This document shows, piece by piece, positions 8,495 to 26,268 of a stretch of DNA of 32,454 nt (within the stretch, counting starts at the first letter, position 1; every line of letters starts with the position of its first letter). A program made the translations under genes and the position numbers. The DNA is taken from assembly GCA_025362325.1 (NCBI GenBank), contig JANYGO010000265.1, forward strand, positions 1-32,454. Direction: 5' to 3'. Below the pieces are notes generated by a model. That model searched no databases. It was not told the origin of the DNA and saw only the letters and a list, made by a program, of their open reading frames with translations. This stretch comes from Cyanobacteriota bacterium. GTDB lineage: Bacteria > Cyanobacteriota > Cyanobacteriia > Cyanobacteriales > Microcoleaceae.

Positions 8495-10672
8495 TCAGAT
8501 TTTACACAACTTTTCAAACACCCCATACATATCACCAGCAAACTTTTTCGGATTCCACAGCGGCGACAAATTGGCTGCGTCTTTAGACTTAACCAACTGT
8601 GCTTTAATTGCATTTCTAAATTCACCATCTTTACCCAATTTTACACCCAATTCCACATATTCCGCCCAAGACCAAGCCGCGCCAGTTTCCATCCCCAAAA
8701 CCTGCAAAAACGAATAACCCATTCTCGACAAAAATTGCTCTCCGGTACGAGTCACCACAGGCAAATTAAACCACAAAGCCTCTAAAGTGTGAGTTCCTCC
8801 ATTGTAAGGATAAGAATCCAACAAAACATCTGCCAGCAAATAGACAATTCTGTGTTCTTCCTCCGTAGCAAATCTAGGCAGAAACTTAATCCGATGCTTG
8901 CTGACTCCTTCAGCTTCGCAAGCTTGGTGATACGCACCCTCAAACACCGCAGCATCGCCCAAAGCTTTGTGAATTAAGATACTGTTCGGCACTTGTTTGA
9001 GAATCGCAACTTGTGCTTTTACTAAGTCGGAATTGAATTTTCTGCCGGGAGCGACGCACAGGTAAACAATCTGATCCAAACCGATCCGATTCGACTTTCT
9101 TAATACCGCTGGATCTACTCCATACCTCTGAAAACCTGACACCGCAACAAACGAATCTGGCATCCTAATTAACTGCTCGTCATAATATTTTTCCCTACCT
9201 GCTGGGTGCGAGTGCCAGTCTGTGAGAAAATAATTTTCTGAGGATATGTAAGGAGCATCAAATCCGAGCCAAGAAATACAAACTGGCGCGGGTTTTTGGT
9301 AGAGAATCTCAGCGTGAACTGGTACACTGAGAGAATCTAAATCGACTAAAACATCTAATTCATCTTGCTGAATTTGGTTGACAATTTCTGCGGAATTGGC
9401 AAGTCCGCTGGGGTAATTTTGCGGGAAAGTCAGTTTGCCGAAACTGGCAAATTGCTGAGTGCGATCGTCGGGAGTAATTCTTTCAGAAGCGTATAAATAC
9501 ACATTAGGCGTGATGTCGGACAATTCGCGAATGATGTCAGCGCTGCACCAACCTACAGAATGGCGGCTGAAGTGATTGGACAAAAAACCGATTTTTAACT
9601 GACTACCTGGGGCTTTTGGTTTGTAACTGTAATTTGCGGGTTGAGAAAAATTAGGTTTGATACATTTTTCGATGTACTTTTGGGCAATTAATCTGTAAAG
9701 TTTAGAGTTGGCTGCCAAGTCATCTCGCACATAGGGTGTGCTGAATAAGAAGTTTGCATAAAGCGATTTAATTTCTACCGAACTCGCCGTTTCTAAGTTA
9801 TTCTGCAAGTACAATTCTAGTTCTAAAAATCGATCGCCCGCAATTTGATTCAATCCTGAGACTTGATAGGTGCTGACGAAGTAAATCGCCGTCATAATCG
9901 GATCGGTTTCGGCACACATTTGGCTGTATTTGTGAACAGCTTGCCGCGCGGCTGCTAAATCGCTAGTATCTCTGAGGATGCCGCACAAATGTTGGTGGGC
10001 TGCAATAAAATCCGGTTTAATTTCTAGGGCTTTTTGCAGGTTGGGTATCGCCTCTTTAAACTTGCCCTGGTGGCGCAAAATTATGCCAATTTGACAGTAT
10101 GCTTCGGGTAAATCGGGTTTGAAAGCGATCGCCCGTTGCCATGCAGCCACAGCCTCATCTAACTTCCCTTGCCGCGCTAATTTATCGCCTAAATTTATGT
10201 GAAAATCTACCTGAGCCAGATGGGGATTGAGTTCGAGAGCTTTTTGCTCGTATGCGGACGCTGCATCCGACTGCCCTTGTTGCTTGAGTGCGCCTGCCAA
10301 ATTCCAGTAAGCAGCAGCCAAAGTTGGTTTAAGTTCGATCGCCTTTTGGTAATTGACAATCGCCTCCAACAAATGCCCTTGCTTGTAGAGCATACTCCCC
10401 AAATTAGCATAGGCCTCAGCAAAATCGGGATTCAGGGCGATCGCCTCCGAATAAAACCGCATCGCTTCCTCAATTTGCCCGCTTGCTTGCTGCACGTTAC
10501 CCATTGTCACGTAAGCCGCCGCCCAATCCGGTTGCAATTCCAGAGCTCGGCGACAAGCAGCGACGGCTGCTGCTAAATTGCCTTGGGAGTAATAGGTTTC
10601 TGCAACGACAGTCAGCGATGCAGCATCTTCAAATTGGGGTGTTTCTGATTGGTTGCGAAAATCGGAATTCAT
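8495..10672 (-). CDS. TPR-repeat, SPINDLY/OGT-type (GT41-like) glycosyltransferase, 725 aa
   Basis: Likely transfers a sugar from a nucleotide sugar to protein or another acceptor. About seven TPR units of 34 residues cover residues 20-270 (repeating pattern AYxNLGxxLxxQGxxxEAIxxYQKAIELKP). The C-terminal half (about 370-720) carries the O-GlcNAc-transferase-like catalytic region: LKIGFLSNHFSRHSVGW, PVCISWLGFDAPYISSENY, and the late motif DSYPYNGGTHTLEALWFNLP followed by GEQFLSRMGYSFLQVLG. His in HFSRHS matches the conserved H of the family. The start ATG at 10672 gives MNSDFRNQSETP; the frame is open a further 38 codons, but those overlap the divergent muramidase gene. In cyanobacteria such genes are common and targets are mostly unknown. 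Confidence 0.9.
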   Translation of the reverse strand: MNSDFRNQSETPQFEDAASLTVVAETYYSQGNLAAAVAACRRALELQPDWAAAYVTMGNVQQASGQIEEAMRFYSEAIALNPDFAEAYANLGSMLYKQGHLLEAIVNYQKAIELKPTLAAAYWNLAGALKQQGQSDAASAYEQKALELNPHLAQVDFHINLGDKLARQGKLDEAVAAWQRAIAFKPDLPEAYCQIGIILRHQGKFKEAIPNLQKALEIKPDFIAAHQHLCGILRDTSDLAAARQAVHKYSQMCAETDPIMTAIYFVSTYQVSGLNQIAGDRFLELELYLQNNLETASSVEIKSLYANFLFSTPYVRDDLAANSKLYRLIAQKYIEKCIKPNFSQPANYSYKPKAPGSQLKIGFLSNHFSRHSVGWCSADIIRELSDITPNVYLYASERITPDDRTQQFASFGKLTFPQNYPSGLANSAEIVNQIQQDELDVLVDLDSLSVPVHAEILYQKPAPVCISWLGFDAPYISSENYFLTDWHSHPAGREKYYDEQLIRMPDSFVAVSGFQRYGVDPAVLRKSNRIGLDQIVYLCVAPGRKFNSDLVKAQVAILKQVPNSILIHKALGDAAVFEGAYHQACEAEGVSKHRIKFLPRFATEEEHRIVYLLADVLLDSYPYNGGTHTLEALWFNLPVVTRTGEQFLSRMGYSFLQVLGMETGAAWSWAEYVELGVKLGKDGEFRNAIKAQLVKSKDAANLSPLWNPKKFAGDMYGVFEKLCKI

Positions 10673-10771
10673 TTGGCGGCCTATCTGTGCTATCAAGTTA
10701 AAGGTTGAATCTAGATTAATTTGCAGAGTAGCAGTTTTAGCGGAACTACGGGCGATCGTCACAGAGAATTT

Positions 10772-11437
10772 ATGAGCGACAAGCAAGCTTTAGGGCGCCA
10801 ACATCACATCAAGTGGAAACCAAACCTTATGCTGGGGATACTCTTGTTAGCCTTGGCAATCCCCTTACCCTTTGCCCAAAAGACTCTCGCACAACAGCAA
10901 ACAGCCAACTTTCGGCAGCGAGTATTTCAAACAGCGCTTTATTTCACCTTATATTTTGAGGGTGGCTTCAGCAATCACCCCGCAGATAAGGGCGGTAGAA
11001 CTTATCGGGGCATCCTGCAAACAGAATACGACTCCTACCGCTACAGTCGCGGGCTGCCGCCCCTCGACGTGACGCAGATGTCGGAAGCAGAGCTCCTAGA
11101 AATTTATAAATATTACTGGGATTCGAGCCTTTCGGGCACGATGCAGCCCGCTTTGGCGATCGTCATGTTTGACACTGCTGTTAATTTCGGCATCAACAAT
11201 TCTATTACATTTTTGCAGCAAGCTTTAGGATTGCCGCAAAGCGGCATTTTTGACGCGCGCACCAGGGAAGCGCTGAAAGCCGCTAACAACAAAAATACAG
11301 CGCTGCAAATGATTAACGAACGGATTATTTACCGCTACAAACGGGTGCAGGAAGATCCGAGTCAAATGGCTTTTTTTCGGGGGTGGTTGAGCCGCGATTA
11401 CAGTTTGTGGGGCTACGTGAATAAGATTAAAAATTAA
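10772..11437 (+). CDS. Exported GH108-type N-acetylmuramidase, 221 aa
   Basis: Predicted peptidoglycan hydrolase acting outside the inner membrane. Residues 1-40 look like a signal sequence: charged start, hydrophobic core LMLGILLLALAIPLPFA, likely cleavage after TLA at residue 40. The catalytic region follows with FEGGFSNHPADKGGRTYRG, where Glu63 in the EGG motif is the expected acid. The C-terminal part (FDTAVNFGINNSITFLQQALG) matches the predicted peptidoglycan-binding half usually paired with this domain. The ATG at 10772 is chosen because it begins the signal peptide; an upstream TTG would add 17 unlikely residues. It is transcribed divergently from the glycosyltransferase, with 99 bases between the two starts. 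Such proteins are often phage-like or used in wall remodelling; no phage genes lie nearby. Confidence 0.88.
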   Translation: MSDKQALGRQHHIKWKPNLMLGILLLALAIPLPFAQKTLAQQQTANFRQRVFQTALYFTLYFEGGFSNHPADKGGRTYRGILQTEYDSYRYSRGLPPLDVTQMSEAELLEIYKYYWDSSLSGTMQPALAIVMFDTAVNFGINNSITFLQQALGLPQSGIFDARTREALKAANNKNTALQMINERIIYRYKRVQEDPSQMAFFRGWLSRDYSLWGYVNKIKN

Positions 11438-18839: not shown

Positions 18840-20045
18840 TCAAAAAGTCTCGTTTCCAGTTGGATCTGGGATTGGGTCGCTCAGACCTAGCTTCTGATAG
18901 CGATAGGAGGCGACAACCGGGTAAACAATGCCGCGTAGCCGATTTATTGCACCAACCGGACGATGGACTGCTAGACCGTTCCAAGGAGAAAATCGCAGGT
19001 TTTCACAGAAATCGTATTGTTTCTCAAAATTAATGATTTGATGCTTGACGGTGAGACGACCTACTGTGAAGAAAGGAGATTCGCTTTCCTTCCAGGTAAT
19101 CGTGGTATCGTCGATCGACATCTTGGAGTTGGTTTGGAATTGAATGCCAAAGTCCCAACAAAATTGAGCATCAGGTTGGAGAAGGGCTTGAATGATGTCC
19201 TCCCGGTAGTAATTGTCGAGTTGACTCGGATCTAAACCTAAAGCTTTGGCGCGATCGCTAAAAGGAAGTTTAGGAATCCCAGGTCGAGACTGAGATAAAA
19301 TCTTGTTGTGCGGCGGTTCGCCTGAAACTGGAGTAAACGCATATTTAATCACAGCCGGATATTCGACAGGAACTAGACTCGTTTTGGAAGCATCAAAATC
19401 GGGTTTGAGACCCAAAGCAGAGGCTGAACTGCTCCAATATCGTTCTGTTAGTAAACTTTTCGGAGTCGAACTCGTACCCTTGAGGAGTGCTAAGAATTGC
19501 CTCGGATGTTGATACAGCCACTTCTTTGTTGCCTCCTTCGACTCAACGACGGCAGAAAAAAAGCCGTAGTAATCTTTGATGTTTTCAACAAAGAAAAACG
19601 CTGAATTATGAACGATAAGATCCTGGGTTTTCGACTCATAGCTTTGCACAAGCCGTTCCCCTTCAACTCCCATCACTTTCACTGCCATTGAGCGGGTGTC
19701 AGGTTCGCAATCATTTTTGGGTTGGAAAGCCCCGTTGGCAAATCGCAGCCAAACAGGATATTGCTTGGGCAAAGACAGCAAGCCTTGCTTAAGGGAAATA
19801 GCATTGAGTTGCGAAGAAGTCAACGAGGCGCGTTTGTTCAATTCACGTTTAATCGCTTCCTCATCAAAGTCAAAGATTTCGAGAGTTCCTTTAACAGCAG
19901 CGTGGCTTTTGGTGTGAGTATCTCGCAGCGCCCGCTCCTTGTCCTTATAAAGATTATCCATGCGGATATTGGTTTGCTCGACTAGGCGATCGCAATATTC
20001 GCGTTCATTCTGTTCGGGATATTCTGTAAACAACTTATTGCTCAT
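18840..20045 (-). CDS. Catalase-related haem protein, probable fatty-acid hydroperoxide lyase/isomerase, 401 aa
   Basis: Haem enzyme of the catalase superfamily, probably acting on fatty-acid hydroperoxides. The distal site reads RDTHTKSHAAVKGTLEIF: His44 is preceded by Thr43, the Thr-His signature known from coral allene oxide synthase, where true catalases have Val-His. The distal Asn is present in VHNSAFFFV. The proximal haem ligand fits Tyr375 in RGIVY (RxxxY, Arg371), within HRPVGAINRLRGIVYPVVAS, the usual C-terminal signature of this subfamily. At 401 residues it lacks the longer extensions of classical catalases. The ATG at 20045 is chosen for the AAGGAAAAT site; a start at 20084 would overlap the upstream gene by 16 bases. 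It lies 23 bases after the DUF2235-dioxygenase gene, so the two are almost surely one operon. Product specificity (lyase, allene oxide or epoxyalcohol) cannot be read from sequence. Confidence 0.85.
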   Translation of the reverse strand: MSNKLFTEYPEQNEREYCDRLVEQTNIRMDNLYKDKERALRDTHTKSHAAVKGTLEIFDFDEEAIKRELNKRASLTSSQLNAISLKQGLLSLPKQYPVWLRFANGAFQPKNDCEPDTRSMAVKVMGVEGERLVQSYESKTQDLIVHNSAFFFVENIKDYYGFFSAVVESKEATKKWLYQHPRQFLALLKGTSSTPKSLLTERYWSSSASALGLKPDFDASKTSLVPVEYPAVIKYAFTPVSGEPPHNKILSQSRPGIPKLPFSDRAKALGLDPSQLDNYYREDIIQALLQPDAQFCWDFGIQFQTNSKMSIDDTTITWKESESPFFTVGRLTVKHQIINFEKQYDFCENLRFSPWNGLAVHRPVGAINRLRGIVYPVVASYRYQKLGLSDPIPDPTGNETF

Positions 20046-20068
20046 ATTTTCCTTGATGCGTTTGCTGA

Positions 20069-22855
20069 TTAAACGGGTTGCCAATTGTAGCGGTAAAACG
20101 AAATTCGATAGTTTTTACCTTGAGGAATGTTGCGGTGCACCACCTCAGAAAGCGTTTTGGTATTGTGAATAATTTCCCAGCCCACAGGCGAAAAAGTTTC
20201 TGGATTGAAGATATTTTCTGCTAATAAAGGATTGGTGAACGCTTGAGAAAACGCATCAATTCCGATTAATCGTCCCACTAAAGGAGGTAGGGCTGAGTTG
20301 GGACGCAAATCTTCGGCATAGAGTCCGACATAAAGCTCAATATTGTCTACGTGTCCGTACAAACTTTTTAGTTCTCGTTGAACTCTTTTATTGCCACTAA
20401 TCTGATCAAAATCGGTGACGCGGGGATACTTGCACAACTCGCGATAATCGTTGTAGCTTCTCAGTTTTGATTGACGAGCCATGCGAATACTGGCTAACTC
20501 GGTTGGTAACAGAAATTCAGGCGTATTGAATAAACTCAGTTGCGCGGCGGGTTGGGAACAACTTTCTTCAAAGATGCCTCCTAACCCCTTGCTGATAATC
20601 ATGTTGTTGTTCCACATGGAGGCAGGCATGGGTACTGTCTCCTCGTTGTGAATGAGAGTATCAGGCAACATACTGTGCCAGCGGTAGACCAAACTAAATT
20701 CTACCGACATCCAATTATGGCGATACCATTTTTCATTAGTGAAGGCCTGTGGATCGGTGAAGAATTGGAAGTGATAGGGAGTAATGTGGTTGATGTAATC
20801 TTCTAACACAATCCTGAGAAATTCAACTACTACAATGTTTCTGGCAGTTTGGAACAGACGTTCATCATCCCAGGCTGGATAGTTTTCTGCTAAGATGTCG
20901 CACACGCGATTGTGTTCTCTCAAGCAAAGAACGTTCAGCATGACATAGCCAATTTGCACGTTTGCCCGTTCTAATTCAATCCCCATCGCGAATAATTTTT
21001 GTTTTTTTTCGTGAGAGAATGTCTCGGATTTTGGGATGGAATTTTCGGTGTAAAGATGAGGTAATTCGGCGAATTCTTCTTTGGCTCGTCCCTCCTCATC
21101 GTAGTAGAACGGAGGATATTCTTCACCATTAATAAATTGGCTTTTCATCTTGCCGCCTTTGTGCGATCGCAACATCTGTGTAATCTTGGGGTTCAACCCA
21201 TAGACATTACACAGATCGATATGGTGGTTGGAAGTATTTTTACGGTGATCGTCGCGGGCTGTACGCAGAAAGCTATCGGTGAACCACTGCACAAAATAGG
21301 GAAACATTAGTGAAGATTTGGGCGAGTATTGTGTCTCCCCGTCTTTGCGATACAAAATTTCCAAATCCTTAATCGGCGGCAGATTTTTCTCAAACTCTTC
21401 GGTAGGCGCTAAATTAATGCCGACGTAATTTTCATTGGTCAAGGGTTTCCAATCTAAAGGCGGCAACTGGAGTCCAGAGTACGAGCGATCGATCAATGAA
21501 TCCCAAGATGTGTAGGGAGACATAGTGCTAAACTGATAGGGACGAACCGGAATCTTATTGATGGCATTGTTAATCAGCGTTTTATTGACTTTTTTCGCAA
21601 GACCTGAATTGTTTTGAATAAAGCTCCAAATTGGCTTTAAGCCAGTTAAAGCTGCCGTCTCCAGTTTGTTTTTAAATCCGTCCCGTGAAGTATCTCTTTT
21701 GCTTGCCATGATGGTTTTTCTTTCTCGGTATTTTCCGGTTCTACGTGGTGATGCTGCTAAGTTTTCACATTCTCGGTATTGCTCGATTCTAGGTGGTGAT
21801 GCTGCTAAGTTTTCAGATTGTGAAGCAGTCTTTTCAGCCTGCTGGATGGAATCAAGTCTTGGGAGAAGTCGTTGTAGATTTTGGGGGCGGTAATCCTGGC
21901 GGGTTTGCCACCGCAAGATCGTGCTTTCATGCAGTTCTTCAATTACATCGCTCACTTCACGCAACTTGATTCCTGCTAATTTAAAAACCCCTGGATCGTT
22001 ATTAAAGTCACACTCATAATTAGGATTAATACCTGTTGGAATGACGCTAGGATCGAATTCTAGCCCCAGTCCCAGGTTACGGGTTGAATCCAACATCCAC
22101 TGCAAGGCGGCATCTGATAACCCGCTGTGTTCTTTTGTTCCACCGCCGACGCAGCCGTGTTCGCCGGGAAACCAAACTTGAATTACCCGCTGGTTGTCAG
22201 CATCAGGATGCTTTTTCATGGGAGTTACGTCGAAAGCTTCGCGGATTTCGTCGATCGCCACGGCGTGCAAGGCATTCTGAATCCCTTTATTTAAAGTTGT
22301 GTCGTGAAATCTGTAGCGCTTGTTGAGTTGTTCGTGAACCTGCTTGAAGGCTGGTACACCAGGAATTCCCAGGGAACCGACGGTATCGAAACAACCAATC
22401 AAGGTAATCGGGACACGATCGCCATAGGTGTCGCGGTAATCGGCAGCCATTTTATCTCGCGGTTTAACGTCTCGATGACGGTAAAGCTCGTAAGCTTCGT
22501 GGGTTTTAGTCACATGAGGGCGCGATAGAAGACCAGCGCAATAAATCATTCCCGCTAGACTTCTGACGGTGTAAGCACCGCGACTGAACCCGAATAGATA
22601 AATTTCGTCACCATCTACATAGTTGAGACTGAGGAACCGATAGGCATCCTCAATGTTGCGATCGATTCCGAGTCCCGTGGCTCCGCCTAAAATCTTTTGA
22701 CTCTCGGTGCCAATGCCCTCGTCATAAAACACGATCTGTGGAACTCCATCACTTGCGATCGGTTTCACAGATTGAGCCAGCTTAACTACATTGCTTGGGT
22801 AAGGACTCGATAGCTGTTGCCAAGTTCCATCACAGCAAATAACCAGACGTTTCAT
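20069..22855 (-). CDS. Fusion of DUF2235 alpha/beta-hydrolase and cyclooxygenase-related fatty-acid dioxygenase, 928 aa
   Basis: Residues 1-330 are a DUF2235 (Tle1-like) hydrolase with an apparently complete triad: Ser91 in GFSRGAYTVR, Asp157 in CFDTVGSLG and His233 in FPGEHGCVGGG. Relatives include type VI secretion phospholipases. Residues 330-440 are a linker. Residues 440-928 are an animal-type haem peroxidase of the cyclooxygenase/alpha-dioxygenase group: SVEFSLVYRWHSMLPD contains the radical Tyr724 and the proximal haem His727 (COX Tyr385/His388). The COX distal-site motif QHFTH reads QWFTD, so the distal His appears to be Asp527. KLRSYNDYRELC and GWEIIHNTKTL match late COX motifs. The ATG at 22855 is preferred over a TTG at 22867, with GAGGTGG upstream. 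I infer release of a fatty acid by the first half and its peroxidation by the second, passed to the catalase-like neighbour. Confidence 0.9.
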   Translation of the reverse strand: MKRLVICCDGTWQQLSSPYPSNVVKLAQSVKPIASDGVPQIVFYDEGIGTESQKILGGATGLGIDRNIEDAYRFLSLNYVDGDEIYLFGFSRGAYTVRSLAGMIYCAGLLSRPHVTKTHEAYELYRHRDVKPRDKMAADYRDTYGDRVPITLIGCFDTVGSLGIPGVPAFKQVHEQLNKRYRFHDTTLNKGIQNALHAVAIDEIREAFDVTPMKKHPDADNQRVIQVWFPGEHGCVGGGTKEHSGLSDAALQWMLDSTRNLGLGLEFDPSVIPTGINPNYECDFNNDPGVFKLAGIKLREVSDVIEELHESTILRWQTRQDYRPQNLQRLLPRLDSIQQAEKTASQSENLAASPPRIEQYRECENLAASPRRTGKYRERKTIMASKRDTSRDGFKNKLETAALTGLKPIWSFIQNNSGLAKKVNKTLINNAINKIPVRPYQFSTMSPYTSWDSLIDRSYSGLQLPPLDWKPLTNENYVGINLAPTEEFEKNLPPIKDLEILYRKDGETQYSPKSSLMFPYFVQWFTDSFLRTARDDHRKNTSNHHIDLCNVYGLNPKITQMLRSHKGGKMKSQFINGEEYPPFYYDEEGRAKEEFAELPHLYTENSIPKSETFSHEKKQKLFAMGIELERANVQIGYVMLNVLCLREHNRVCDILAENYPAWDDERLFQTARNIVVVEFLRIVLEDYINHITPYHFQFFTDPQAFTNEKWYRHNWMSVEFSLVYRWHSMLPDTLIHNEETVPMPASMWNNNMIISKGLGGIFEESCSQPAAQLSLFNTPEFLLPTELASIRMARQSKLRSYNDYRELCKYPRVTDFDQISGNKRVQRELKSLYGHVDNIELYVGLYAEDLRPNSALPPLVGRLIGIDAFSQAFTNPLLAENIFNPETFSPVGWEIIHNTKTLSEVVHRNIPQGKNYRISFYRYNWQPV
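21723..21818 (-). repeat. 48-base tandem duplication in the fusion linker
   Basis: Two adjacent 48-base copies (21723-21770, 21771-21818) encode the repeated residues ENLAASPPRIEQYRE and ENLAASPRRTGKYRE in frame. It is located in the linker between the hydrolase and dioxygenase domains, just before an internal Met (codon 21709-21707) that begins MASKRDTSRDGFKN. Confidence 0.85.
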
Positions 22856-23798
22856 GTTCCACCTCAAAAGCTTTCACTCGGCGTAGCGTGCATTGCAACG
22901 CATCTTACCAGTTGAGTAGCTGCGTAAGCCTATTTATTTTACCAAGTAATTAACTGTTTTAAGAAAAACTTTAAAACCTGAAAAATGACCGACTGACCGC
23001 AATAGTCTAAACCGCTATTTATACCACTTCAAAAAAATCATGCAACTGTAGGAAAGCTGCAAACCCTTATGTGATATCATTTCCTGTAGATCGATGGATT
23101 GCAATGCGTAAAGTTCGATTTTTCGGACAGGAGTCCTTTGAATTTGCGGACTGGAGTCCGCACTACAAACAGTTTTTGATTGCGGTCAATCTACCGGACA
23201 CGATATGATATGTCATTCCCAATTTCAAATCGCAAATCCAAAATCAAAAATGGTATGAGCCTGCGAGTATAAATGGTTAAGCCTCCCATCATCGCATTCT
23301 TTTTTCCAGGAGAAACTGCAACTGAGCTTGCAATCATAAATCTCAACCAGGATAAATTGGAAATAGGCTGAAAGCAATGATTGTCAAAGGTGAGCAGGTA
23401 AGAGTTACTTTCCTATCGTTTACGATCGATTAACCGCAATAAAATTCGTTCGTAGTGCGGACTTAAGTCCGCAGAATTTTGCGTATTCTTGTGGGCACGC
23501 GCGATCCGTTTTTGTTAGAATAATCGACCCGACACGATATTATATCGTGTCCGCTCGATTGACAACGATAAAATTAGTTCGCGCCTGCGGACTCCATTCC
23601 GCAACCGAGCCGGACTAAAGTCCGCACTACGAACAGTTTTTGCTTTTGAAATTTTGACACGGAAATAGGAGACTTCGATCCGCTTGCAGGGGTTTTCGGA
23701 AGAGTCAAGAAAGCATTCATTTACTTGACTCTTATAGTTGCAAATAATCCCAGCAAAAAGGGATGAATGCAAGTTGGTTGCAATTAATCCTGGTTCAG
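22856..23798. other. 943-base intergenic region with nested palindromic elements
   Basis: No convincing gene. The half nearest the fusion gene is AT-rich (22920-23050) and probably carries its promoter. The other half is a mosaic of GCGGACT-type palindromes (about 23140-23165, 23449-23473, 23578-23601, 23611-23636) and a 21-base palindrome at 23530-23550. A 32-codon frame at 23273-23371 has no support. Confidence 0.55.
23449..23636. mobile_element. MITE-like element bounded by GTTCGTAGTGCGGACT inverted ends
   Basis: The left end TTCGTAGTGCGGACTTAAGT (from 23449) is complementary, with one mismatch, to the right end GGACTAAAGTCCGCACTACG (23611-23636). In the centre lies a palindrome with arms GACACGATAT (23530-23539) and ATATCGTGTC (23541-23550). 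The same terminal motif bounds the hairpin at 32029-32076. There is no coding capacity. Confidence 0.65.
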
Positions 23799-26192
23799 TT
23801 ATGCAACTTCTACGAACACGCCGCTGCGGGCAAACTCCTCCTCTTCAGGCGTGAAGTAGGGCACTCGATCTGCAATCTCAGGATCAAAACGGTATGTCTC
23901 CTGAAGGAATTGTCCGGCGATCGCAGCTTCCTCCAAATCCTTGATGTAATCTTGGGCTAGCGTGCAAGCCTCTCTCATACCTGCCTCGTCGCCCTTCTCC
24001 AACAGCTTTTGCAGCGTTGCTCTGACACCTGCTAACCGCGATGCTGGCTTGAGCAGCCCGTAGAGGCGGTACAAACGATCGACCGAGAGGCTGAGGTGTT
24101 TGAGCGCTTTGCTGCGCGCTAGTTCCGAGTCCAGACTAGGCCAGTAGCGGGTCGTGTAGAACGCTTTCTCATCCTTGTGATACCATTCCTCCGATCGAGC
24201 GATCGATGACGAGACTGTGTTGTGTAGTTTCCAGAAGAATAACCGCAGAGCAGAACCATCGACAACTGTAGACAGCTTTGCATCCATCGATACCTCAAAG
24301 TTATTGAGCTCTCGATCGCGCCCCAGCAAAAGATACTCTACCGGGTACATATCAACCTCTTTGTTCTGCACAACGTACATATTGAGGTGGTGGCGGCAGT
24401 AAGGGCACGGGTACATGGTAGCAAACAGCTTAAAGAAGTCCTTGAAGACTGCTACTAGGGCTTTTTGCTTTTCCTCTTTCTTGGTACACACAATTTCCGC
24501 CGTGGTGTGGAAGAAGCGCCACACCCCAGGGCCGATATAGTAGGGGAAACTGACGCGCATCTGAGAATCTTTCACGTCACTTCGACCCAAATACACATCA
24601 ATGAATGACACATACTGGGAAAGCGCCCCAGACTCGCGCCCAAACTCTTGGCGTTCGCGCCGTTTCTGCACCCCATTCAGATAGTGGTGGGTTAAACGCC
24701 ATGCCTGCATGATAGCCAGCTTTTGTTTTGGGCTGCATTTAGGAAAGTTTTCTGCCACATCCGCCCCATAGTGGCCAAATCCTCCAACGGATTTCGTGTT
24801 TTCGTACCATTGATCTAATGCCGCTTGGTCAGGTACGGTGTTGCTTTGGATGTCAGCCGCCGTACTGACACTGAAGGCCGCTAGCAGCTTCGGCATAAAG
24901 TCCTCATACCAATACACCACTGGCATCATCGCACCCTTGATTTCTTCTGAGGCATCGGAGAGGATAACGCGGTTCCACTGCTTCAGATAATCTTTGGGAT
25001 CGCCTTCAGATTTGGGGGGAGGTGGGGCAAGCTCTGCATTCAGTTCCCTCTGCCTCAGACGGTTGAGTTCGTTGATAGCCAGCACACCTTCGGCGATGTC
25101 ACGAAAGCTGAACTGCTTTTTCTTCATGGTGATGGCGAACTCGACACCTGCTGCAAATTTCTCCTTGACTGAGAGTGACTTGCGGCTTGCCTCCAGCATC
25201 GCTTTATCCTCGGTCAGCATCTCTGGTGTTTTTTCGATGGTTTTCCAGTTTTTGATGCGGTTTTCCACTCTAGCGTACTCAGAATCGATCGATTCAACGA
25301 CTGCATTTAGCAGAGGATGGCAAGCTTTTTCTACGATATCTAACCCTTTGTACAGTGCGATCGCTGTCTGCACAAACTTCACAAAGTCGGTGATTCTATA
25401 GGGTAGGTTTCTCACGCGCAGGTGAGTTTGGTGGTTGGCGGAGAAACTCTCGCGGAAGCAGCGGTAGGCAGATCCTTGAATCAGGCGGAACATACCGATT
25501 TGCATTTGCAGGCGCGAGGTAACGCGCTCTTTTTGATCCTGTGGGTGTTGCGCGAGCAGTTCTTTGAGTCGCGCTACCTCGGGATCGTCGTCGCTGAGTG
25601 CTTCCTGTAGGGGAGATTCGGTGGTTGTTAAAGTGGTTGTGTTAGTGGCTGCCACTATTTCTTCGGTGACGGTGGCTGCATCGCTTGAAGTAGGATTCGT
25701 TAGGGTAATTGGCGAATCTTGAGAGCTACTTATTTCTGATTCCTCCGGGACGAGTTTCATGAACTCTTCAAAGCCAATTGAGGCATCGCCATCACGATCA
25801 ACTTCTTTGATCATTTCTTCGAGTTCCTCATTAGTCAGCCCAAACTGACTCATGACGCTGTGCAGCTCGTTTGCAGTAATTTGACCGCTGCCGTCTTCAT
25901 CAAACACGCTGAATGCCAGCTTGAGACGGCTTTTGCGATCGCCCTGCTGCGACAAAATTAGCGTTTGGAATTCCTCAACATCTATACTACCCGACAAGTC
26001 AACGTCTACCTCCTTGACCATATCGCGCAGTTCGATGTCGCTAGGACTCTGCCCGAGCGATCGCATCACTTGCCCCAGTTCCTCTGTTGAGATCGCACCG
26101 CTGCCATTTTCATCAAATACTTTGAAAGCTTCCCAGAGCTTCGCCACCTCTTCTTCAGTCACAACTTTGTTTTCAAGGGCCACAGGTATCAT
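23799..26192 (-). CDS. Calmodulin-like EF-hand protein fused to an Erv/ALR-type sulfhydryl oxidase module, 797 aa
   Basis: Residues 15-148 form two pairs of EF-hands laid out as in calmodulin, with loops starting at Asp27, Asp63, Asp98 and Asp132, about 35 residues apart, each ending in Glu at position 12. Wording such as ELGQVMRSLGQSPSDIEL is strikingly close to eukaryotic calmodulin. In loop four the central Gly is Ala137. A Thr/Ser-rich linker (155-200) leads to a helical region (205-545) of no known family. Residues 550-665 resemble an Erv/ALR FAD-linked thiol oxidase: GPGVWRFFHTTAE, the redox pair Cys596-Pro-Tyr-Cys599 in MYPCPYCRHHL, and the FAD-type motif FFWKLHNTVSSS (His657-Asn658). 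No signal peptide is visible, so the location is probably cytosolic. The ATG at 26192 follows GGGAGGATTGATTC, an excellent ribosome site. It is on the same strand as the dioxygenase operon but about 940 bases away, so co-regulation is not certain. Confidence 0.85.
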   Translation of the reverse strand: MIPVALENKVVTEEEVAKLWEAFKVFDENGSGAISTEELGQVMRSLGQSPSDIELRDMVKEVDVDLSGSIDVEEFQTLILSQQGDRKSRLKLAFSVFDEDGSGQITANELHSVMSQFGLTNEELEEMIKEVDRDGDASIGFEEFMKLVPEESEISSSQDSPITLTNPTSSDAATVTEEIVAATNTTTLTTTESPLQEALSDDDPEVARLKELLAQHPQDQKERVTSRLQMQIGMFRLIQGSAYRCFRESFSANHQTHLRVRNLPYRITDFVKFVQTAIALYKGLDIVEKACHPLLNAVVESIDSEYARVENRIKNWKTIEKTPEMLTEDKAMLEASRKSLSVKEKFAAGVEFAITMKKKQFSFRDIAEGVLAINELNRLRQRELNAELAPPPPKSEGDPKDYLKQWNRVILSDASEEIKGAMMPVVYWYEDFMPKLLAAFSVSTAADIQSNTVPDQAALDQWYENTKSVGGFGHYGADVAENFPKCSPKQKLAIMQAWRLTHHYLNGVQKRRERQEFGRESGALSQYVSFIDVYLGRSDVKDSQMRVSFPYYIGPGVWRFFHTTAEIVCTKKEEKQKALVAVFKDFFKLFATMYPCPYCRHHLNMYVVQNKEVDMYPVEYLLLGRDRELNNFEVSMDAKLSTVVDGSALRLFFWKLHNTVSSSIARSEEWYHKDEKAFYTTRYWPSLDSELARSKALKHLSLSVDRLYRLYGLLKPASRLAGVRATLQKLLEKGDEAGMREACTLAQDYIKDLEEAAIAGQFLQETYRFDPEIADRVPYFTPEEEEFARSGVFVEVA

Positions 26193-26268
26193 GAATCAAT
26201 CCTCCCTAATGTTTTAATTGGGTCTCTATTGGATCTAGGCGGTTCTCCTAAACCAGAGAGTGCCGTAT

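Follow-up and report, generated by a model that had tools for sequence, protein, structure and literature searches.

A conserved cyanobacterial protein family joining a calmodulin-like EF-hand module to an Erv/ALR-type domain, a candidate calcium-gated thiol oxidase

A precedent for calcium gating of a redox flavoprotein is NOX5, which also occurs in the cyanobacterium Cylindrospermum. For the cyanobacterial NOX5, PMC7317449 shows a four-EF calmodulin-like domain through whose C-lobe Ca2+ activates the flavoenzyme. Fusions of calmodulin-like EF-hands to many domains are reported from cyanobacteria, actinobacteria, proteobacteria and verrucomicrobia in the accessible sections of PMC7016017, such that a preliminary description of the locus analyzed here, which called calmodulin-like proteins with four hands rare in bacteria, overstated the case. 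The cyanobacterial partners named in those sections are 7TM, Tic110-like, NOS and NADPH oxidase, and the fusions share with the present protein the theme of EF-hands placed on redox or helical domains. Unnamed cysteine-rich partners are also mentioned there (Figure 3E) in a main text that lacks the term Erv; the architecture described below may be among those drawn in that figure. Erv domains (PF04777) are placed in Nostocales, Oscillatoriophycidea, Rhizobiales and Rhodobacterales by the accessible portion of PMC10598087. Both calmodulin-like fusions and Erv domains had thus been described separately from cyanobacteria; no paper on an EF-hand/Erv fusion was found in the literature searched, mostly without subscription journals and without bioRxiv preprints.

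The window analyzed here is a stretch of 32,454 nucleotides from a cyanobacterial contig (JANYGO010000265.1, Microcoleaceae). Re-reading of the open reading frame and its translation left the earlier coordinates of the gene (23799-26192) unchanged and assigned it to the minus strand, which the preliminary description had not given. The proposal that four EF-hands and an Erv/ALR domain share one polypeptide is well supported by Pfam, conservation and homologues; the profile search suggested at that time returns both EF-hand and Evr1_Alr matches for the window protein. Table 1 presents the domain layout. The protein represents a conserved family, and an artefact is excluded. Promoter and terminator scans around the gene gave figures close to those of shuffled sequence, and the defence and phage family libraries contained no match with E < 0.05.

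Table 1. Features of the calmodulin-Erv gene in window coordinates
Feature	Position	Strand	Basis
Whole gene, 797 aa: calmodulin-like module, linker, helical domain, Erv/ALR domain, C-terminal helices	23799..26192	-	ORF, Pfam, 55-row alignment
GGGAGG, likely ribosome-binding site, 8 nt upstream of ATG	26201..26206	-	Direct sequence reading
EF-hand loop 1, aa 27-38, DENGSGAISTEE	26079..26114	-	Pfam; canonical in 50/56 rows
EF-hand loop 2, aa 63-74, DVDLSGSIDVEE	25971..26006	-	Pfam; canonical in 50/56 rows
EF-hand loop 3, aa 98-109, DEDGSGQITANE	25866..25901	-	Pfam; canonical in 53/56 rows
EF-hand loop 4, aa 132-143, DRDGDASIGFEE	25764..25799	-	Pfam; canonical in 53/56 rows
Acidic linker, aa 150-204	25581..25745	-	pLDDT 24-32 (blocks over aa 151-200); dN/dS 0.34-0.45
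Helical middle domain, aa 205-545	24558..25580	-	Structure model; Pfam without known family; 71/341 invariant (34 rows)
Candidate EF-docking surface, aa 331-374	25071..25202	-	Conservation pattern (inference)
Erv/ALR domain, aa 546-680	24153..24557	-	Pfam, core profile; 55/135 invariant (34 rows)
WxxxH motif (W558, H562)	24507..24521	-	Invariant 55/55; W558 aligned to yeast Erv1 W95
CPYC, presumed redox centre (C596, C599)	24396..24407	-	Invariant 55/55; aligned to Erv1 C130/C133
WKLHNTV, aa 654-660, presumed FAD-site His-Asn motif	24213..24233	-	Invariant 55/55; spacing fits Erv1 H162, V165
C-terminal helices, aa 681-797	23802..24152	-	Structure model; 13/117 invariant (34 rows)

Inspection of the N-terminus bears out the canonical EF-hands and calmodulin arrangement noticed earlier, where all four loops carry canonical Ca ligands and the module aligns end to end with calmodulins. 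Pfam places EF-hand_7 over two stretches (E 1.3e-28) and EF-hand_1 over four, and the first 150 residues are colinear with calmodulins by phmmer (E about 1e-38). Among the 50 structural alignments listed for the full model against calmodulins, identity is 44-54%, mostly 47-50% over both lobes, with Z of 11.5-12.2 and an rmsd of 2.1-3.5 for one lobe versus 12.7-15.3 for both, as the lobes superpose individually, one at a time. The module thus resembles calmodulin in its four canonical EF-hands, colinear over 138 residues at about 49% identity. Unlike calmodulin, it is covalently fused to its presumed target. Two residues are also missing between EF-hands 3 and 4, and two of the three alignments listed show the same shortening between EF-hands 2 and 3.

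The EF-hand ligands are retained across most of the family. Under a rule requiring D at loop position 1, D/N/S at 3, D/S/N/T/G at 5 and E/D at 12, all four loops are canonical in 49 of 56 proteins, three in two proteins, one in four and none in one. Identity to the eukaryotic calmodulin PDB 8aht is 44-57% in the main clade versus 23-31% in locus L058 and five EF-degenerate members. These five divergent members (L068-L071 and a protein from Gemmobacter) have 0-1 canonical loops yet an intact Erv core; L068-L071 belong to small cyanobacterial genomes of 2.3-3.0 Mb in family f25, perhaps picocyanobacteria. Since the Erv core is kept where the loops have degenerated, calcium probably adds a layer of regulation that lineages can lose, and Ca2+ gating is no family-wide need. 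Of all the results, this apparent decay of EF loops beside intact Erv cores speaks most clearly against Ca2+ control being obligatory. For the window protein compared with four relatives, dN/dS is 0.06-0.22 in the EF module, 0.34-0.45 in the linker, 0.08-0.18 in the middle and 0.04-0.08 in the Erv domain; the EF module and the core are under purifying selection, and the linker is less so. A tree of the EF domain had very long branches and unsettled bootstrap values, and no origin of the calmodulin module is drawn from it. Elsewhere in the family, a stand-alone EF-hand pair of 108 aa (L066:4846-5172) lies 4.8 kb upstream of a calmodulin-Erv gene. It shares 70% identity with the N-terminus of the calmodulin-Erv protein across 89 residues, as if part of the calcium module had been duplicated.

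The Erv/ALR assignment was assessed with an alignment of 55 rows, comprising the window protein and 54 full-length proteins. Excluded were loci below 740 aa (L032, L052, L062, L065), L067, the broken L082, short loci among L001-L016 whose genes longer loci also cover, together with six duplicate contigs (L073, L075, L078, L079, L080, L081). The Erv/ALR order of CPYC and an HN motif, claimed previously, stood: W558xxxH562, C596PYC599 and H657N658 are invariant in 55/55 rows down to 38% overall identity. The complete set of unvarying motif residues is W558, H562, Y594-P-C-P-Y-C599, H602, H657, N658 and V660, all of which the Gemmobacter member retains (WxxxH, YPCPYCxxH, HNxV). At the profile level, Evr1_Alr (PF04777) matches residues 556-612 of the window protein at 40.0 bits against a cut-off of 27.6, is matched by 34/34 scanned cores at E <= 1, and lies above the curated cut-off in all 16 PF04777 matches of the cyanobacterial sample. 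A search of the core profile against solved sequences gave 12 matches at E <= 1, ten of which are Erv/ALR oxidases (best E 1.3e-5), with Erv1, Erv2 and ALR among the structures matched.

Like the FAD-linked sulfhydryl oxidases Erv1 and ALR, the domain carries WxxxH, CXXC and HNxV in order and scores above the Pfam cut-off. In contrast to them, it sits within an 800-aa protein with a calmodulin module attached, and the first CXXC Cys is separated from the HN His by 61 residues versus 32 in Erv1 (C130 to H162). The accessible part of PMC4721541 lists 13 yeast Erv1 residues as contributing to FAD binding. On that list, six are identical and invariant here (G554, W558, Y594, C599, H657 and V660, for Erv1 G91, W95, Y128, C133, H162 and V165), one is a conservative change (K171 to the invariant R666), and three are altered (R92 to P555, F137 to L603, C159 to W654). 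The remaining F174, R182 and W183 have no placement in the alignment, where R682 and W684 are candidates. Because C159, half of the structural CX16C disulfide of Erv1, is replaced by W654, that disulfide is missing from the window protein.

Cysteine conservation extends this difference from Erv1/ALR. The CPYC pair provides the only invariant cysteines, with C291 present in 51/55 rows, C743 in 50/55 and C486 in 47/55, and thus both the shuttle and the structural disulfides of Erv1 are missing; no second CXXC occurs in the window protein. The shuttle disulfide is absent from some Erv/ALR members and hence is not strictly defining. Neither an N-terminal signal (hydropathy maximum 1.16 over 19 residues) nor a membrane helix or other strongly hydrophobic segment is evident in the hydropathy scan of the window protein, from which a cytosolic location appears likely. 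Absence of conserved structural and shuttle disulfides is as expected in a reducing cytosol. The same absence, together with the three changed FAD-site residues and a Pfam match to the window protein that covers no more than positions 2-56 of the 93 in the profile, could instead mark a degenerate or repurposed Erv fold that has lost thiol oxidation and serves as an FAD sensor or in reductive electron transfer. We regard that explanation as very unlikely, given that CPYC, W558, H562, Y594, H602, H657 and N658 are invariant in 55/55 rows and that two family members match profile positions 2-82. FAD binding and thiol oxidase activity are what the motifs would predict for the window protein.

Between the linker and the Erv domain lies a helical region larger than either the calmodulin-like or the Erv/ALR domain, and the observation that residues 205-545 match nothing known holds: across 34 cores, other families are weak at E <= 1, with a best E of 0.0021 in four members. 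Its arrangement recalls QSOX (Trx-psiErv-Erv), where the Erv domain is likewise C-terminal to a long helical region. In contrast to QSOX, the window protein lacks a thioredoxin domain (no Pfam match at E <= 1) and a second CXXC, and its helical region has no profile similarity to Erv. At the profile level a QSOX-like psiErv in the middle has no support, as hhalign of Erv against the middle gave a probability of at most 0.3%; a 57% row for Erv against the C-terminal slice is an artefact of an 11-residue overlap of the slices.

Conservation of the middle domain raises the question of its role. In a 34-row core alignment, in which only rows below 93% identity were retained, 139 of 598 positions are invariant, comprising 55/135 in the Erv domain, 71/341 in the middle and 13/117 in the C-terminus. 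The invariant middle positions include Arg, His, Tyr, Trp, Glu and Asp, no convincing Pfam match accounts for them, and the core as a whole resembles a giant-virus protein by fold. The middle could on these grounds be the main enzyme or receptor, with Erv a built-in source of oxidant (disulfide or H2O2) and calmodulin the switch. This arrangement seems unlikely to us, as the Erv part is more conserved, no cofactor motif is recognised in the middle, and its conservation may reflect packing against Erv only, in the manner of psiErv, which packs against Erv in QSOX (PMC3616962, accessible part). Within the middle, rows with canonical EF loops conserve residues 331-374, whereas the five EF-degenerate rows do not. 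They constitute a candidate docking surface for the calcium module, and the same pattern can arise from plain divergence.

Structure predictions were generated for the core (pLDDT 72, pTM 0.81) and for the full-length protein (pLDDT 68, pTM 0.66), the latter with a disordered linker. Inspection of the full model indicates that helices 555-569, 573-592, 597-605 and 646-667 carry the motifs in Erv order. VIA-align matched core residues 354-580 to the mimivirus Erv enzyme R596 (3td7; Z 4.8, rmsd 3.5, 106 residues), which is weak support because its Z is tied with those of unrelated helix bundles. Absence of other Erv enzymes from the VIA listing is not evidence against the fold. VIA rows over core-model residues 31-248 are generic helix bundles (Z <= 5.0) and are not taken as relatives, and Foldseek comparison of the core model with the PDB gave no match with E <= 0.001. 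Fold comparison with BFVD gave a single stand-alone match, the Yasminevirus protein A0A5K0UAY3, labelled histidine kinase, which aligns with the core at E 5.8e-18 (TM-score 0.57 by query, rmsd 12.2, 19% identity, 747 columns) and with the full model at E 1.1e-17 (TM-score 0.42). By this predicted fold, the whole core probably exists in a giant virus, where its parts may be set differently.

How the calcium module acts on the oxidase is considered with NOX5 in view. NOX5 and the window protein each place a four-EF calmodulin-like domain on a redox flavoprotein, where NOX5 is a membrane-bound NADPH oxidase, whereas the window protein looks soluble and has no Pfam match at E <= 1 to the ferric-reductase membrane or NADPH/FAD dehydrogenase domains. 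By analogy with the EF-hand-gated NOX5, we consider it somewhat probable that the window protein is a Ca2+-gated FAD thiol oxidase of the cytosol, with both Ca2+ binding and gating as predictions; the EF-hand NO synthase encoded in the window's own genome adds a further precedent. The architecture suggests that calcium may switch the disulfide or peroxide chemistry of the enzyme. A rise in cytosolic Ca2+ would fill the four EF-hands, and the Ca-loaded module, tethered by its flexible linker, would then dock on the helical domain, where residues 331-374 may lie close to the contact. Docking would open or order the CPYC/FAD site, where a dithiol substrate would reduce CPYC and CPYC would in turn reduce FAD. 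Electrons would then pass from FAD to O2, yielding H2O2 and a disulfide, or to another acceptor.

The calmodulin module might instead target or scaffold a real thiol oxidase at a membrane, partner or filament, with Ca2+-dependent or independent binding and no gating of catalysis. Loss of EF loops in five divergent members whose Erv core persists would fit such a role, as would a long, poorly conserved linker and the lower pTM of the full model relative to the core. Three points argue against it: in the main clade the EF module is under purifying selection, conservation of the middle segment is confined to proteins with canonical EF loops, and NOX5 offers a precedent for gating. We regard scaffolding as a tentative possibility, less likely than gating.

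Distribution of the family was examined in genome contigs, plasmids and viral sequences. A genome-contig scan gave 51 loci, all cyanobacterial by title except one labelled proteobacterium; L067 has only 21 matching residues, and L052 and L065 are pieces from one genome. In a sample of 386 cyanobacterial genomes, 18 match the core, where 15 copies are intact (the window's included), one is broken, with a stop as well as a deletion (G167, locus L082), and two are remnants (G125, G376), so that the distribution in cyanobacteria is patchy. The broken copy and small remnants fall within one genus, g18, which points to the gene having been lost repeatedly. Evr1_Alr occurs in 16 genomes of this sample, all of them among the 18, indicating that cyanobacterial Erv, in the 386 genomes sampled, is always found within this protein. 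Genome G336, of the same genus as the host, holds a 94% identical copy on one contig represented twice (L017/L080).

Outside the cyanobacteria, the contig labelled proteobacterial comes from a phylum in which 1/398 genomes matches (core and PF04777), namely the centre genome itself, and from a class in which 1/274 matches the core. Its flanking genes are, by eye, presumably of the pcnB, nnr, tsaE, amiC, mutL and miaA types, an order we take to be gammaproteobacterial, which makes a stray cyanobacterial contig unlikely. The Gemmobacter aquarius member (WP_159082576), of 752 aa and 39% identical over 91% of the query, is plasmid-borne and annotated 'ERV1/ALR-related protein'; no other of the 72,556 plasmid records matched. 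In viral_contigs, two scans gave no sequence relative; the CPYC pattern occurred in ten stretches, within which the core profile gave only four short matches around the motif (best E 0.015). Phage records likewise gave no relative.

A core tree of 28 rows with a midpoint root, in which Gemmobacter and L058 are long branches, splits L069-L071 and Gemmobacter from the calmodulin-bearing cyanobacteria and L058 (100/100). The window protein groups with Nostocales, Calothrix and Tychonema copies (seven rows, 100/99), apart from the Microcoleus rows L028 and L074, and this placement suggests transfer between cyanobacteria.

Inspection of the flanks reveals no widely conserved neighbour, with no flanking family within 9 kb common to more than 10/60 loci, many of whose flanks are cut; the most widespread family reaches 10/60, nine of them Nostocales by title. 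Near the gene, window positions 18840-22867 (minus strand) encode a 932-aa fusion of a Tle1-like lipase with an animal-type haem peroxidase, and an overlapping catalase-like gene of 414 aa; together they read like a lipid-oxidation (oxylipin-like) operon. These genes were considered as an operon partner and set aside, being found elsewhere, among the loci compared, only in L017/L080. Positions 8495-10786 (minus strand) encode a 763-aa protein with TPR repeats and a glycosyltransferase-41 (O-GlcNAc-transferase-like) domain.

The wider redox context includes two VKOR proteins in the window's genome, of the kind used for ordinary disulfide formation, and hence the calmodulin-Erv protein is not the only likely oxidant. 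The same genome also encodes an EF-hand NO synthase (L108:5522-10168), which, like L025:2821-7443, combines an EF-hand pair, an NO synthase oxygenase domain and flavodoxin/FAD/NAD reductase domains in a single protein. About 2 kb from it lies a gene for a 626-aa protein with globin domains (two stretches) and pentapeptide repeats (L108:1608-3488). In Plectonema radiosum (L025), the NO synthase gene is 0.85 kb upstream of the calmodulin-Erv gene. Co-occurrence of the two was found in 3/15 intact carriers, 1/20 chosen non-carriers and 0/1 broken copy, and no meaningful link was drawn.

Taken jointly, these results can be read, with considerable reserve, as describing the first calcium-gated sulfhydryl oxidase, where a true calmodulin would switch a cytosolic, disulfide-poor Erv that supplies a new helical effector with oxidising equivalents, as disulfide or H2O2. 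The accompanying evolutionary reading is equally tentative: cyanobacteria, proteobacteria and a giant virus would have exchanged the core, and some lineages would be losing its calcium switch. A protein that contains its own calmodulin and a redox catalyst offers a directly testable Ca2+ decoder, and it would also be unusual for a thiol oxidase to work in a reducing cytosol. If true, EF-hands would control a third redox flavoenzyme of these bacteria besides NOX5 and the EF-hand NO synthase, which would bear on the cyanobacterial or actinobacterial origin of calmodulin proposed in PMC7016017.
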